DNA from: Chthoniobacterales bacterium
Lineage (GTDB): Bacteria; Verrucomicrobiota; Verrucomicrobiia; Chthoniobacterales; DASVRZ01
Direction of reading: 5' to 3'
DNA length: 64,000 bases
Assembly (NCBI GenBank): GCA_039930045.1
Contig: JBDSQB010000002.1
Coordinates: 186,001-250,000, forward strand
In this document: piece by piece, positions 13,529 through 59,755 of the stretch
Numbering within the stretch: position 1 is the stretch's first letter
Layout of the letters: the number at the start of each line of letters is the position of its first letter
Notes under the pieces: model-generated
The model's input: only the letters and a program-made list of their open reading frames with translations
Database searches by the model: none
Told to the model about the DNA's origin: nothing
Translations under genes and position numbers: made by a program

Positions 13529-14554
13529 TTATTGGTTCGGTTTCTCTTTGATTGTGCGCACCTGTAACATGACGTCTCTTCCAACCGGCGAGAGAGACCA
13601 AAAAAGGCCCATTCCACCCTTCATGGTTTTTAGGCTTTCGATTTTGATAAAGCCAAGGGCAAGGAGTTGAAGCTTCATCGTAGCGAAAGTTTCACGTTCG
13701 ATACTGACGGAGTGGCCATCAAGTGGAAGCCTCACAGCAATTGATTTCCCTAACTCACTATTGGCTGTCTCTTCGTTCAGTGGCTGAAATAGCTGAGGGC
13801 CGAGTAAGCCTATGATCTCATTCCAACTAATGTCTGTCTCCCAAGAAGCGTCATAGTATCTTGGGTTTCCATGGCTGTCTGAACCGGATCGTTTATAGTA
13901 GCGACCCCTAAGGTGAAAATTTGAGTTGGCAGAGGCTAAATTGAGGGTCTCGTGCGTAGGAGCATTCGCTAAGGCTTTCCGCAGTTCACCTAGGAGTTCA
14001 TCATTCCGTTGCCGCAATTCATTTATTTGTTTAAGGAGTTCGGGATTTGATGCTGAACCACCGCGCACCCAACCGGCCTTTGGAAACGCTTTGATCGCCT
14101 TTGGCAGACTTAAGGCGACTAAGCCCGGGAGTTCAGCAGTATTGCTCCATGGCTTAATCATTCGACTAGCGCTGACTTTCTTGCGAAATGCTTCGAGCCG
14201 TTTACGCGCTTCGGGCTCAATATCCGATTTGCCAAGTGGTATAAGTTCGGGTTGAGCATGAAGAAAAGCAATTACATGAATCCCTATAGACACTGCATAG
14301 TCGTATTCTTTTTCTGTATAGCTAATTCCTTCAGCGGTAGTTGATCCATATCTGCCTCCAATAATCAGAATGTAGTAATCGCAATCATCGATGATTTTAC
14401 GAATAAAGGCCCATTGCTCTTCATCTGCAGCCGGAAATAATTCCATCCCTGCTGGAATGCAGTCCATCTGCATGAGGGTTTGGATCACTTCTTTGCGCTC
14501 ATCAATTAGATCAGTGAACGTAGAACTAAGGAAAACTTGGTAACGGGTATCCAT
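13529..14554 (-). CDS. DUF4062-domain protein
   Basis: The 341-aa protein has a DUF4062 domain at about residues 4-90, recognised from [31 protein letters not shown] and [17 protein letters not shown]4062 is a Rossmann/TIR-like module often fused to STAND NTPases and predicted to belong to conflict systems, but it has no proven biochemical activity that I can cite. Here it is not fused to an NTPase: a short coiled coil (about 180-200) leads to a C-terminal region that looks like a winged helix ([17 protein letters not shown]). Base composition is clearly lower in GC than the flanking genes, which points to recent transfer. It starts 13 bp downstream of a methyltransferase remnant. Confidence 0.85.
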
Positions 14555-14567
14555 GGGAATGGCTGTA

Positions 14568-14807
14568 TTAGTTTTTAGAGACTATCCGCAAAGTGCGAGG
14601 CGTGATCGTCTGTGGTAGTAGAAGCTGCCGGTTTTCTTGAGCACGCGGGCGAGTTGTTCGCAGCGAGGGCGGGTCGATGTAGATCAAGTCCACGGAGGCG
14701 GCGGGCAGCTTTTCGAGTTGCTCCAGGTTGTCGCCGCAGTAGATGACGCGCGTATCGACGAGGGCGGAGGGTTTGCCAGCGGGGGCGAGGGATTTCACGG
14801 CGCTCAT
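14568..14807 (-). pseudogene. Remnant of a beta-class DNA methyltransferase
   Basis: The N-terminus reads as a site-specific adenine/cytosine methyltransferase: TRVIYCGDNLEQLEKLP followed by SVDLIYIDPP, the catalytic D-P-P motif. Directly after DPP the frame turns to nonsense, but the +1 frame reads CEQLARVLKKTGSFYYH, a segment that in intact enzymes lies about 80-100 residues further on, then TDDHASHF. So an internal deletion plus frameshift removed the part between the catalytic motif and this helix, and the rest of the gene is gone. The DUF4062 gene begins right after it on the same strand. Confidence 0.8.
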
Positions 14808-15049: not shown

Positions 15050-15781
15050 TCAGGGAGTGACTGGCGGGACGGTGTCCTTCGGCTTGGCGCTGCGGCGGCC
15101 GAGGGCGGTGACTTGGCGGGCGTTGAACCAGGCGGCGATGAATTCTTTGCCCAAGTCGGTGGTGCAGAATTGGATGATGAGGTCGTCCAGACCGGAAAAT
15201 TGTTCCTCGACGGCCGCGAATTTGCCGGGGAGGGCGCTGGTCTGGCCTTTGCGCCGGGAACGGGCTCCGGCAGGGGCTCCGACGGCGGTGCTGTAGCGCT
15301 CCCAGAGGTCGTCCACTTCGGCGAAGAGGGCGGCGGTGATGCCGGCGTGTTCGCCGGGGGCGGGCTGGCCGGCGGCGGGAGGAAGGGTGAGCGGCTCGGC
15401 GAAGTCGAGGACGGTCTCGCCCAGGCCAGCGAGGATCACGCCACGAGCGTCGTGCAGTTTGCTGGGGTTGAGATCGACTTTGGCGGCGTCCTCGGTGCGG
15501 CCTGCTTTTTTCAGAAACCGAAAGGTGGCCCGGGAGAGGATGTGGAGTTTCTCCTCGAAAGTCTGCCGGAGAAGGCGGAGGGCTTCGGCAGTGCCGGTGG
15601 TGGGGGCGCTTTGCTCGGCTCCAGCGGTGCCGAGGGCCGCCACGGCGGTGCGGACGATGGCCACGTCCTCGGTGAAGAGGAGCGGGGTTTTGTCTTTCCA
15701 GATGGGGACGTAGATCGGGGTATCAAGGACGGCGAAGGAGCCGTTGAAGCTGACGAGTTTGTTGGACAAGGTATCTTTCAT
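15050..15781 (-). CDS. Hypothetical protein, 243 aa, next to the tandem array
   Basis: I do not recognise the family. The sequence is mostly alpha-helical by pattern, without signal peptide or membrane segment. It has a charged N-terminal region with WKDKTPLLFTEDVAIVRTAV, a helix-rich centre (RLLRQTFEEKLHILSRATFRFLKKAG), a Pro/Gly-rich linker near 140-150 and a C-terminus ending TVPPVTP. Base composition and codon use match the host chromosome. The start ATG is 4 bp downstream of the stop of the heptad-repeat frame (15786-16226), so the two could be co-translated. Confidence 0.7.
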   Translation of the reverse strand: MKDTLSNKLVSFNGSFAVLDTPIYVPIWKDKTPLLFTEDVAIVRTAVAALGTAGAEQSAPTTGTAEALRLLRQTFEEKLHILSRATFRFLKKAGRTEDAAKVDLNPSKLHDARGVILAGLGETVLDFAEPLTLPPAAGQPAPGEHAGITAALFAEVDDLWERYSTAVGAPAGARSRRKGQTSALPGKFAAVEEQFSGLDDLIIQFCTTDLGKEFIAAWFNARQVTALGRRSAKPKDTVPPVTP

Positions 15782-15785
15782 AATT

Positions 15786-16226
15786 TTAAGGACGGGTGAC
15801 TGCGGTTTTCTGATTTGGTGGAATACTAAAGGGTCGAAATGGAGGGGTTTGCGGGGCTAAACAGGTTCCAGCCCCCGTGAGCGGTCTTGCAGGGTGGATG
15901 CGGGAGCGTCCAGACGGGATGAGCGGCTTTCCAGTGAGGAAGAGGGACGTTCCAGCCTGCGTGAGGCGTGTTCCAGCCACCGTGAGTGACCTTCCAGACG
16001 TGACGAGGGATGTTCCAACGTCCGTGAGCGGTTCTCCAGCCGACGTGAGGAGGCTTCCAGCTTGCGCGAGCCGGGTTCCAGCGCTGGTGAGTGATCTTCC
16101 AGAGGGCAGCCTGGATGTTCCAGCGGTGAAGCGCGGTGCTCCGGTGAATGGTGCCAGAAGAACGGAAGTCCCTCCCCGGCGCTGGCGGCGGAGCCAGTCT
16201 GTCCGATGCTGAGAGGGTCTTGGCAT
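15786..16226 (-). CDS. Possible heptad-repeat protein encoded by the 21-bp array
   Basis: This 146-aa frame spans the whole 21-bp array and reads as 13 consecutive heptads of the form A/S-G-T/R-x-L-T-x (examples AGTRLAQ, AGEPLTD, SGRSLTV, AGTRLTQ). Gly at heptad position 2 and Leu at position 5 are almost invariant, and the variable bases fall mostly on positions 4 and 7. It starts at ATG 16226, has a basic N-terminal 25 residues and ends 4 bp before the 243-aa gene. Another minus frame also stays open through the array (S-R-x-L-E heptads, 15857-16504), so protein coding is not proven. No signal peptide or known domain is seen. Confidence 0.35.
   Translation of the reverse strand: MPRPSQHRTDWLRRQRRGGTSVLLAPFTGAPRFTAGTSRLPSGRSLTSAGTRLAQAGSLLTSAGEPLTDVGTSLVTSGRSLTVAGTRLTQAGTSLFLTGKPLIPSGRSRIHPARPLTGAGTCLAPQTPPFRPFSIPPNQKTAVTRP
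15866..16159. repeat. 14-copy degenerate 21-bp tandem array
   Basis: Fourteen units of exactly 21 bp follow each other without a single insertion or deletion. On the plus strand each begins TTCCAG (variants TTGCAG, GTCCAG, CTCCAG, TTCCAA) and most have GTGAG or GAGG-like bases at about positions 12-16; the remaining positions vary freely. Together with the hairpins on its 5' (plus-strand right) side it fills the 750-bp gap between the 243-aa gene and the adenosyltransferase gene. There are no spacers, so this is not CRISPR. Confidence 0.9.
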
Positions 16227-16323
16227 GGCTTGTTGTTAACCCGTTTGTTAAGCGGGACCAAGATTATTTTTACCTTTTCATGCAGTTCAAGGGGTAATTT
16301 TCGAGTTACTTTGGGAAATGGTA

Positions 16324-16494
16324 GGCACTTGAGACAAGTGCCCTCCAGTGGCGTTCTCTGGAGGGGATCTGCCCTCGTGGGTTTCACTCGTTCCCAAACT
16401 CCCGTTTGGGAACGCACTTGCTGGGCAAACTCTGTTTGCAGGCGGGGAAACGGAGTTTCCAAGACCAAGGCATTCCCAAACAGGAGTTTGGGAA
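16324..16494. repeat. Cluster of six short hairpins
   Basis: Six palindromes occur in 171 bp: GGCACTTG/CAAGTGCC (16324-16342), CCTCCAG/CTGGAGG (16342-16364), CGTTCCCAAAC/GTTTGGGAACG (16389-16414), GCAAAC/GTTTGC (16425-16439), GGAAAC/GTTTCC (16446-16460) and TTCCCAAAC/GTTTGGGAA (16473-16494). The last four share an AAAC...GTTT core. They resemble the REP-like family whose shadow translation reads SQTPVWER. The stretch 16500-16570 adds copies of a CACGGAG-type repeat that runs into the end of the adenosyltransferase gene. Confidence 0.8.
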
Positions 16495-24435: not shown

Positions 24436-27400
24436 TCACGGGCGAGGCGATTGATCGAGTGTCTCACGGATTTTGCGCATGAGTGCCGTCGGGCTGAAGG
24501 GTTTTGGCAGGAAGCCGCCGTGGGCTCCGGTGGCATCCGCTTGGTCGGACGTGTAGAGGACAGCCGCACCGGGGTGGTGTGCAAGGACGTGGGCGGCGAG
24601 AGTTTCGCCAGCCATGCCGGACAAGGCCATGTCGGTAACGAGCAGATGGATCGGCCCTCGATCCGGGCGCTGCGCCAGACTCCAGGCGGCCTGCCCGCTG
24701 GCGGCGGTGAGCACGGTGTAACCCACCTTCCCGAGCAGGATGCCGGACATCTCGCGCAAGGCGGGATCTTCCTCCACCAGCAGGATGGCTTCCGTGCCCC
24801 TGGCGGCGGGCGATGCGGGCGCGGGTGAAACTTCGAGGGAACTCGCCTGCGCGAAGCTGGGAAGGTAGATTTGGAAGCTGGTCCCTTCCCCGGGAAGGCT
24901 CTGGACGGCAATGTGCCCCCCGCTTTGTTTGATGATGCCGTAGCAGGTGGCGAGCCCGAGGCCGGTGCCCTGGCCCACGCCTTTGGTGGAAAAGAAAGGC
25001 TCGAAAATGTGGCGGCGGGTCGTCTCGCTCATGCCGATGCCCGTGTCGGTGATAGCGAGCATGACGAATTCGCCTGGCTTCAATTCGGGGAAGCCGCTCA
25101 CAGCATTTGGATCCAGCGCGACGCAGGAAGTTTCTAGCGTCAGTCTGCCTCCATTGGGCATGGCGGCGTTGGCGTTTAACACCATGTTGACGATGACCTG
25201 CTCGATCTGCCCGACATCCGCCCGCACAGGTTTTAATCCGCAGCCCGGCACGAGGCGCAAATCCACGTTTTGGCCGATCAGGTGGCGCAACATCATTTCC
25301 CTGTCGAAGAGGACGGCATTGAGATCGAGGATTTCCGGACGGAGAATCTGTTTGCGTCCGTAGGCCAGCAGTTGGCGCGTGAGAGCGGCGGCGCGGTCGG
25401 CGGCCTTGCGGATTTCGGTCGCGTTGGTTACGAGCGGATTTCCCGGGGGCAGATCGTGGAGCAGCAATTCACTCTGGCCGATGATGGCCGTCATGATGCT
25501 GTTGAATTCGTGGGCGATGCCGCCGGCCAGCTTGCCAACCGTCTCCAATTTTTGAGATTGAAACAATCTGGCCTCCGCCTCTTTCAGAGCGGTGACGTCC
25601 TTGGAGATGCCGAAGGTGCCGATGATTTCACCGTCTTTGTCGCGGAACGGCATTTTGGTCGTGAGCACCCAGGATTCGCGACCATCCTGCCAGACCTCAT
25701 TTTCCATTTTGTTGATCAGCGGCTGGCCGGTGCGGATGATTTCCTGTTCGTCCTCAAAGGCCGGACGGGCGTGTTCCTCGGAGAAGAAATCGAAATCCGT
25801 CTTGCCTTCCATGTCGTCGGAAGAGGCCAGGCCAAACAGCCGGGCCTGGGCCTCGCTGGCCTTGATGAAGCGGGATTGGGTGTCCTTGAAATAAATGTGG
25901 TCGGGCGAATGATCCAGCAGCGTCCGCAACAGATCGTGTCCGTAGGCCGCCTCTTTTTCCGCCAGCTTGATGGCGGTGATGTCCTTGGAAATGCCGAAGG
26001 TGCCGATGACGTTGCCGTCCTTGTCGCGAAAGGGCAGTTTGGTGGTGAGGCACCACGACTCCCGGCCATCCGGCCAGATCTCTTTTTCCACTTTGCCAAT
26101 CATCGGCTCGCCGGTGCGGATGATTTCCTGTTCGTCCTCAAAGGCGGGACGGGCGTGCGCCTCGGAGAAGAAATCGAAATCCGTCTTGCCCACCATGTCG
26201 TCGGGGGAGGCCGCGCCAAACAGCCGGGCCTGTGTCTGACCCGCCTTGAGAAAACGGGACTGGGTGTCTTTGAAATAAATCTGGTCGGGCGAATGATCCA
26301 GCAGGGTCCGCAACAAATCGCGCTCGTAGGCCAGTTTCACTTCCGCCTGTTTGCGGTCGGTGATGTCGCCGAAAGCACCAATCACCCGAGTGATGATGCC
26401 ATCGGCATCCCGCTCCGCCTCCCCCGCGATGCGCGCCCAAATCTGCCGCCCGTTGGCCTCTTTCATCTCCGCATCCATGTCGAATGCAGTGCCCTCCGTG
26501 GCACAAAGCGCGATGGCCGCGCCGAGCTTTTCGCGGCTGTCCGGGGTATAGAGGTTCAACGACTCTTCCAGGGAAGGCTCTTCTCCGCGCTGAAAGCCCA
26601 GGCTTTCCCAGACTTCGCTGGACCAAAAGACGACGTTGTCCGGCACCGTGACCGCCCATCCTCCGACGCGCGAAATTTTACTCGCAATGCGCAACAACGA
26701 CTGATTCTGCAGCAGCTTGTCCTCGATGGCCTTCCGCTCCGTGATGTCGCTGGCCAGGCCCGTGAGGCGCACCAGTTTGCCCGCGGCGTCGCGCACTTGA
26801 AAGCCGCGGTCGTGAACCCAGCGGACGGTGCCATCGGGACGAGCGATCCGATACTCGACGCTCACCCGCGGCTCGTTGGCCATGAGCGTGCCAAAGACCG
26901 CGAGGACGTTGTCACGATCCTCCGGGAGGATGGTTTCGATCCACTGGTGAGGACGGGCATACAAGCTCTCCATCGAACGTCCCCAAATCATTTCATAACC
27001 CGCACTGACGTAGTGCATGATCGTCAAATCCGGCGAAGTGATCCAGAAGACGTCGGTGATGTTATCCGCCAGCAGGCGGAATTTCTCCTCGCTTTCACGC
27101 AACGCCTCGCTGGCCTGCTTCACGTCGTGCATGTCGGTGCAGGTGCCAAACCACCAGCGAATCGCGCCGGCTTTATCGCGCTGCGGGACTCCACGAACGA
27201 GGAACCAGCGATAACCGCCAAGGTGATCGCGTAGTCGGACCTCCAGGTTATACTCTGCGCCATTCTCAGTGGCGTTTTTCCACGCATTTGTGGCACGTTG
27301 CCGATCGTCGGGATGAAACGGCTGACTCCAACCGTGCCCGGAACTCTCCTCCAGTGTCAGACCTGTGTAATCCACCCAGCGTTGATTGAAGTAAACGTTC

Positions 27401-59678: not shown

Positions 59679-59692
59679 TCTTACCAAGAGCA

Positions 59693-59755
59693 CTTCGGCA
59701 GGTGTTTGAACCACTCCGACGGGTGTTCGAAATGCTCCGCCAGGTGTTTGAAATT
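59693..59755. repeat. Three-copy 21-bp tandem repeat after thiE
   Basis: Three units of exactly 21 bp begin CTTCGGCAGG, CTCCGACGGG and CTCCGCCAGG and contain GTGTTTGAA or GTGTTCGAA. A fourth, degenerate unit (CGGGAGG...) may follow. In one plus frame they read L-R-x-V-F-E-x heptads. Unit length and lack of indels match the array at 15866-16159, but the consensus is different. Confidence 0.7.

Follow-up and report, generated by a model that had tools for sequence, protein, structure and literature searches.

As a rule, it is the sequence that identifies a DNA element from one genome to another. Iterons and the ParR/parC partition centromeres consist of short direct repeats spaced by about two turns of the helix, which lie beside a small gene and are bound cooperatively; their unit is fixed and recognised by Rep or ParR, and an initiator or an NTPase is the partner. 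Repetitive extragenic elements of the REP type are palindromes.

The nearest described array is BrickBuilt of Porphyromonas gingivalis, a MITE minisatellite with a fixed 23-nt unit and with a leader and a tail that bear terminal inverted repeats (PMC4596501). For a row of sites in helical phase, the ptx promoter provides an example: BvgA~P dimers occupy six weak, degenerate sites, spaced by 22 bp on one face of the helix, and these sites have been deleted in 22-bp steps, keeping the phase (PMC7250471). Here, an array of 21-bp units is described from a stretch of 64,000 nucleotides of a Chthoniobacterales genome (the window), together with related arrays in Verrucomicrobiota.

The locus and its array

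The features of the locus are as follows.
15050 to 15781, minus strand: family-1 gene of 243 aa, all-helical with a Pro-rich C-terminal tail (family alignments; AF2 pLDDT 90.9)
15782 to 15865, minus strand: leader from the array to the start codon, presumed site of the 5' untranslated region
15866 to 16159, minus strand: 21-bp array of 14 units, read in the gene-sense direction
16263 to 16290, minus strand: sigma-70-like match TTGAAC-16-AATAAT (9 of 12; 0.1 expected)

The array flanks the minus-strand gene at 15050-15781 on its 5' side, 84 bp from the start codon, and this gene is the 3' half of a cassette of array and gene. Its product has zero Pfam or NCBIfam matches. A sigma-70 scan from the array to the ATG gave no strong match. 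The sigma-70-like match at 16263-16290 is the sole one nearby and lies 5' of the array; it is no general trait of array loci, and its bearing on this array is uncertain.

As the first-pass annotation had proposed, fourteen 21-mers abut with zero indels. Self-identity of the array is 0.54, 0.57 and 0.55 at lags of 21, 42 and 63, and at most 0.38 at every other lag up to 69. Over 210 bp the lag-21 peak reaches 0.581, against a mean of 0.37 and a maximum of 0.405 in 60 first-order Markov simulations (z 17.7), and nowhere else within the 64-kb window does lag-21 identity exceed 0.42. The units are about 55% identical, with partly constrained columns and no spacers. The two blocks that had been singled out as kept, TTCCAG and a GTGAG-like one, are recognisable by column: columns 2 and 4 show no variation, 13 of 14 units agree in columns 3, 5 and 6, and the GTGAG block (columns 14-16) is kept in 10-12 of 14. 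The exact word TTCCAG is found in only nine units; the remaining five boxes are one or two bases off (TTGCAG, GTCCAG, TTCCAA, CTCCAG and CTCCGG). The final unit, at 16139, is weak. On the gene-sense strand the unit opens with CTGGAA, which is the TTCCAG box, and carries a CTCAC block, with a single AT-containing box for every two turns of the helix.

Several further elements lie in the surroundings. Two REP-like palindromes, TTCCCAAAC-N4-GTTTGGGAA, are located 5' of the array at 16391-16412 and 16473-16494 (0.01 expected), and sequences resembling this pair also border family copies at L237 and L087. ORFs that resemble a Y1 transposase lie close to the arrays L095 and L217. On the 3' side of the family-1 gene are a DUF4062 protein and the apparent start of a truncated DNA methyltransferase (13529-14554 and 14571-14807); the resemblance of the latter was judged by eye, Pfam giving no match, and the two are possibly a decayed defence locus. 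At 59692-59754, a short 21-bp array of about three GTGTTTGAAATGCTCCGCCAG-like units sits between ORFs that by eye resemble a thiamine-phosphate synthase and a PfkB-type kinase; it is possibly a young or a decayed array. A 384-bp tandem duplication with 85% matches (TRF) occupies 25589-26332.

Two gene families preceded by arrays

A search for the TTCCAG/21-bp pattern in genomes of the same order returned diverged arrays, one of which adjoins a homologue of the window family-1 gene, and a protein search with the product of this gene yielded homologues down to about 25% identity. Most of these have an array of exact 21-bp period directly upstream, with units that are mutually dissimilar (for example AATCGCNCGTTAC..., CTGTCAATG... 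and TCTCACCCTACTGCAACAGCC). An array just upstream, with a best lag of 21 or 42, is present at 27 of 43 family-1 loci in Verrucomicrobiota genomes, 40 of which had enough upstream sequence and three too little; about one third of the assessable loci are without one, and these other, array-less loci comprise fragments as well as intact genes. In the window's own genome, each of the four family-1 copies has the upstream array. At L124 (G611:C75), a 21-bp array lies 3' of the family-1 gene, at about 900-1180 bp counted from the start of the gene.

The arrays are roughly 9-25 units long. Lag 42 often beats lag 21, which indicates a tendency of the units to alternate pairwise. The consensus unit is specific to each array, while the period stays at 21 bp. 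Arrays with a 21-bp period and TTCCAG boxes had been named as the thing to search for in relatives. The period recurs there, but TTCCAG is particular to the window array, other arrays have other boxes, and only a weak oriented motif is common to them (5.87 bits; the maximum in three orientation nulls of 60 is 5.69). The orientation of this motif relative to the gene is coherent across arrays.

In the same genome, two arrays located away from family 1 lie ahead of genes of a further undescribed family, here termed family 2, with a Pro-rich N-terminus and long helices. An upstream 21-bp array is present at 10 of 12 assessable family-2 loci and at three more in a further set, in which five loci, several of them fragments, have no 21-bp signal or an ambiguous one. 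The two families tend to occur together. Among 97 relatives, all six family-2 genomes fall within the 11 family-1 genomes (p = 4.7e-7), and in a class-wide sample of 286, five of ten family-2 genomes are among 14 family-1 genomes (p = 2.9e-5); both p values assume independent genomes and take no account of relatedness and genome size. Profile comparison between the families (63% probability and an E of 7e-5 in one comparison) suggests a remote homology, to be taken with caution as both are all-helical.

The predicted structure of family 2 is helical and, at a pLDDT of 87.1, confident like that of family 1. Searches of the PDB by sequence and by fold gave no significant match to either family, nor did the viral models of BFVD to family 1. 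Nothing convincing was found for family 1 in Pfam, NCBIfam, PHROGs and PADLOC, and Pfam had no match to family 2. Neither set of proteins contains a known DNA-binding domain or an HTH, and family-1 members are mostly acidic (pI 4.8-6.9).

Conservation and copies of the cassette

Three close pairs indicate what is conserved. L231 and L237 are recent family-2 copies in the window's own genome, 90% identical, with homology that sets in about 180 bp ahead of the array, on its 5' side, and runs as far as the final sense codon. Their sole gap within the array is exactly 21 bp long, whereas the gaps outside it, in the leader and at the upstream edge, measure 1, 13, 1 and 3 bp. The family-1 paralogs L086 and L087 (contigs 16 and 10) align without a gap over about 1 kb, from within the array to near the gene's stop, with 24% of sites diverged in the array and 35% in the leader. 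In the orthologs L056 and L127, from two genomes of one genus, 447 bp of array align gap-free with 23 substitutions; the sequence from the array to the ATG, in contrast, defies alignment. As the array differs by 5.1% and the gene has a dS of 0.107, the array is conserved, changing about half as fast as synonymous sites. The first-pass annotation had spoken of free sequence drift, and this is too strong. It had also pointed to period-breaking indels in relatives as an observation that would speak against its reading. None is present in the three close pairs; a few arrays do show shifts, 16 in 559 units of 40 arrays and mostly at array edges, a count that is biased since the arrays were detected by autocorrelation, which favours indel-free ones.

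In recent copies, array and gene are held in common and the outer flanks are unrelated; the homology does not go beyond the final sense codon, with flanking DNA completing the stop codon. Together with several copies per genome, a sporadic distribution, broken copies and the lack of common neighbour genes around family loci, this could mean that array and gene form a mobile or duplicating cassette, in which the array serves the mobilising machinery for recognition or recombination and is not a regulator. We regard this as rather unlikely. Inspected by eye, the edges of L231/L237 and L086/L087 revealed no terminal inverted repeats, target-site duplication or transposase, and there were no matches in phages, plasmids and IMG/VR. 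The gene of L086/L087 has a dN of 0.074 and a dS of 0.63; the resulting dN/dS of about 0.12 indicates purifying selection, which fits use, though mobility is compatible with it as well. Mobility of the cassette and a role of the array as a row of phased sites are, moreover, compatible readings.

Coding capacity, RNA and DNA shape

The exact phase had been presented as a choice between translation (21 bp being seven codons) and DNA geometry (two helical turns). The dilemma was well posed, and the evidence favours its second branch, by the 21-bp recurrence and the 21-bp indel. In support of a translated heptapeptide repeat, four of six frames are stop-free across the core of the window array, in agreement with the earlier count of at least three; open frames summed over 40 arrays number 89, against 66 in column shuffles; and a HlyD-like ORF (L087:11254-12399) illustrates that coding heptads can yield a 21-bp periodicity. 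The excess of open frames is attributed to the relatedness of the units, and a residue of coding may be contained in it. However, the drift per frame, which had been proposed as a check, does not bear out coding: substitutions by codon position are 16/28/17 in the L086/L087 array (p = 0.11) and 8/8/7 in L056/L127, without bias in paralogs or orthologs. Furthermore, the arrays L109, L158, L168, L169, L175 and L217 are not open throughout in any frame, and array ORFs gave no above-cut-off match to a protein family. A translated array is therefore disfavoured, and we judge it very improbable.

A role at the RNA level has to be considered too: the array could be transcribed as a long 5' leader that carries protein-binding motifs at 21-nt spacing. 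The coherent orientation relative to the gene speaks for this possibility, as does the sigma-70-like match 5' of the window array. Against it, promoter matches 5' or 3' of arrays are not above chance, folding of both strands of 20 arrays showed no consistent signal beyond unit-order or column shuffles, some arrays lie between convergent genes, and a flexible RNA offers no obvious reason for a spacing of exactly 21.0. An RNA-level element seems improbable. A structured RNA family was rejected as well, folding not being below shuffles and tRNA being the only match in Rfam.

As to the DNA itself, the autocorrelation of WW dinucleotides is 0.42 at 21 and 0.46 at 42, and no signal appears at 10-11. 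This points to one box per two turns rather than to intrinsic bending; curvature by A-tract phasing at 10.5 bp was discarded for lack of this 10-11 bp signal. Palindromic operator units were set aside likewise, since the dyad score exceeds a z of 2 in just nine of 40 arrays (mean z 0.64).

Arrays throughout the genome

In 1.30 Mb of the window's own genome there are 17 non-coding 21-bp arrays. Outside long ORFs, the same 1.30 Mb contain none with a period of 11, 13, 16, 17, 19, 20, 22, 23, 25, 26, 27, 29 or 31 bp; the few non-21 matches, at 12, 15, 24 and 30 bp, are all multiples of three. Two genomes without family 1 had 0 arrays in 0.36 Mb, a small sample. Eleven of the 17 arrays adjoin neither family 1 nor family 2.

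These data bear on the question of whether the arrays are neutral or nearly neutral minisatellites, with 21-bp units that are a product of the amplification mechanism. Three arrays (L118, L047 and L169) are almost homogeneous, and amplification therefore happens; L231 and L237 differ by a whole unit gained or lost, and arrays exist away from the family genes. A neutral origin is nevertheless unlikely in view of the 21-bp period across unlike sequences, with no non-coding arrays at periods indivisible by three, the strong association with two gene families, the slow change of the array beside an unalignable leader and the weak oriented motif that arrays have in common.

Some arrays are found near genes related to defence. 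L169:1360-1702, L191:19558-19831 and L168:4787-5056 adjoin MmeI-type restriction-modification genes (two genomes) or precede a large protein with a weak, sub-threshold resemblance to NACHT. L168:4787-5056 and L169:1360-1702, about 16 kb apart in the window's own genome, have nearly the same unit and are the sole pair of this kind noticed among arrays away from family genes. A general association with defence is not proposed: MmeI-type, weak NACHT-like, FRG or DUF4062 genes lie by some arrays and not by most family loci.

A proposed array of weak sites in helical phase

The explanation that we tentatively prefer, with a confidence not far below even, is that the array lines up weak DNA sites in helical phase on a single face of the duplex, is bound cooperatively and forms the 5' half of a cassette with a gene. 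The array would be non-coding and would present a weak site every two helical turns, with the AT-containing box facing the same side of the duplex each time. The cassette would consist of this array, on the 5' side, and the gene of a small helical protein from one of the two families. On the array, a DNA-binding protein would assemble cooperatively and control the cassette gene; this protein would be the cassette product or a factor shared by the genome. Selection would hold the phase, as one base gained or lost turns all later sites to another face, and drift of the sequence would be tolerated, each site being weak and contributing little. Binding by a protein, cooperativity, regulation and the identity of the binder are here what we infer. 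Several results count against this reading: the family proteins, most of them acidic, are devoid of known DNA-binding domains, about a third of the assessable family-1 loci have no array ahead of the gene, promoter matches by the arrays stay at chance level, and a few arrays show phase shifts.

The arrays away from both families suggest a shared factor, or further partners, as the binder, which may thus be encoded elsewhere than in the family genes. With 11 of 17 arrays off these genes, and some between convergent genes, promoter control alone is insufficient as an explanation. The constant 21-bp spacing of unlike units, usually just ahead of genes of the two families, suggests an unrecognised system of gene control or DNA packaging. 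It is possible, albeit with considerable doubt, that Verrucomicrobiota have a genome-wide nucleoprotein-array system, in which locus-specific two-turn arrays of weak sites and two co-occurring, perhaps remotely related helical protein families form self-propagating cassettes that are read by geometry and not by sequence.

Relation to known systems

No description of such arrays was found in the open-access literature, and none of the known families fits, in line with the initial remark that no named element has these properties. What is invariant here is a length, 21 bp or two turns, and the sequence varies by locus; consequently, such elements escape ordinary repeat searches, and TRF alone recovers just 2.7 of the 14 units in the window. 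Should a protein read the phase, DNA recognition based on geometry would have a natural example here. The arrays also give a first handle on two undescribed, co-occurring protein families with the same array arrangement.

CRISPR loci differ in having near-identical repeats, unrelated spacers and cas genes; the present units abut, are about 55% identical and have no shared neighbour genes. With REP/RAYT systems there is a likeness in the dispersed intergenic repeats of the window's own genome and in the Y1-type transposase-like ORF near some loci, but the arrays are made of direct repeats with little dyad symmetry. Unlike iterons and partition centromeres, they have no adjacent Rep, ParR or NTPase gene, as judged by Pfam for both families and by the neighbouring genes, are chromosomal and multicopy, and have a locus-specific unit. 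BrickBuilt is similar in being an intergenic tandem array without spacers, with short units, many copies per genome and both conserved and variable positions. It uses, however, a single 23-nt unit for all copies, has inverted ends and lacks a partner gene family, whereas the arrays described here each have their own 21-bp unit, show no inverted ends and are followed by a gene family. The BvgA~P row on the ptx promoter resembles them in having sites spaced by two turns of the helix ahead of a gene. That row consists of few sites ending at the -35 element, without a visible tandem array, and is bound by a response regulator; the arrays in Verrucomicrobiota, in contrast, extend over about 9-25 units, precede a gene family with no HTH match and occur at other loci too.
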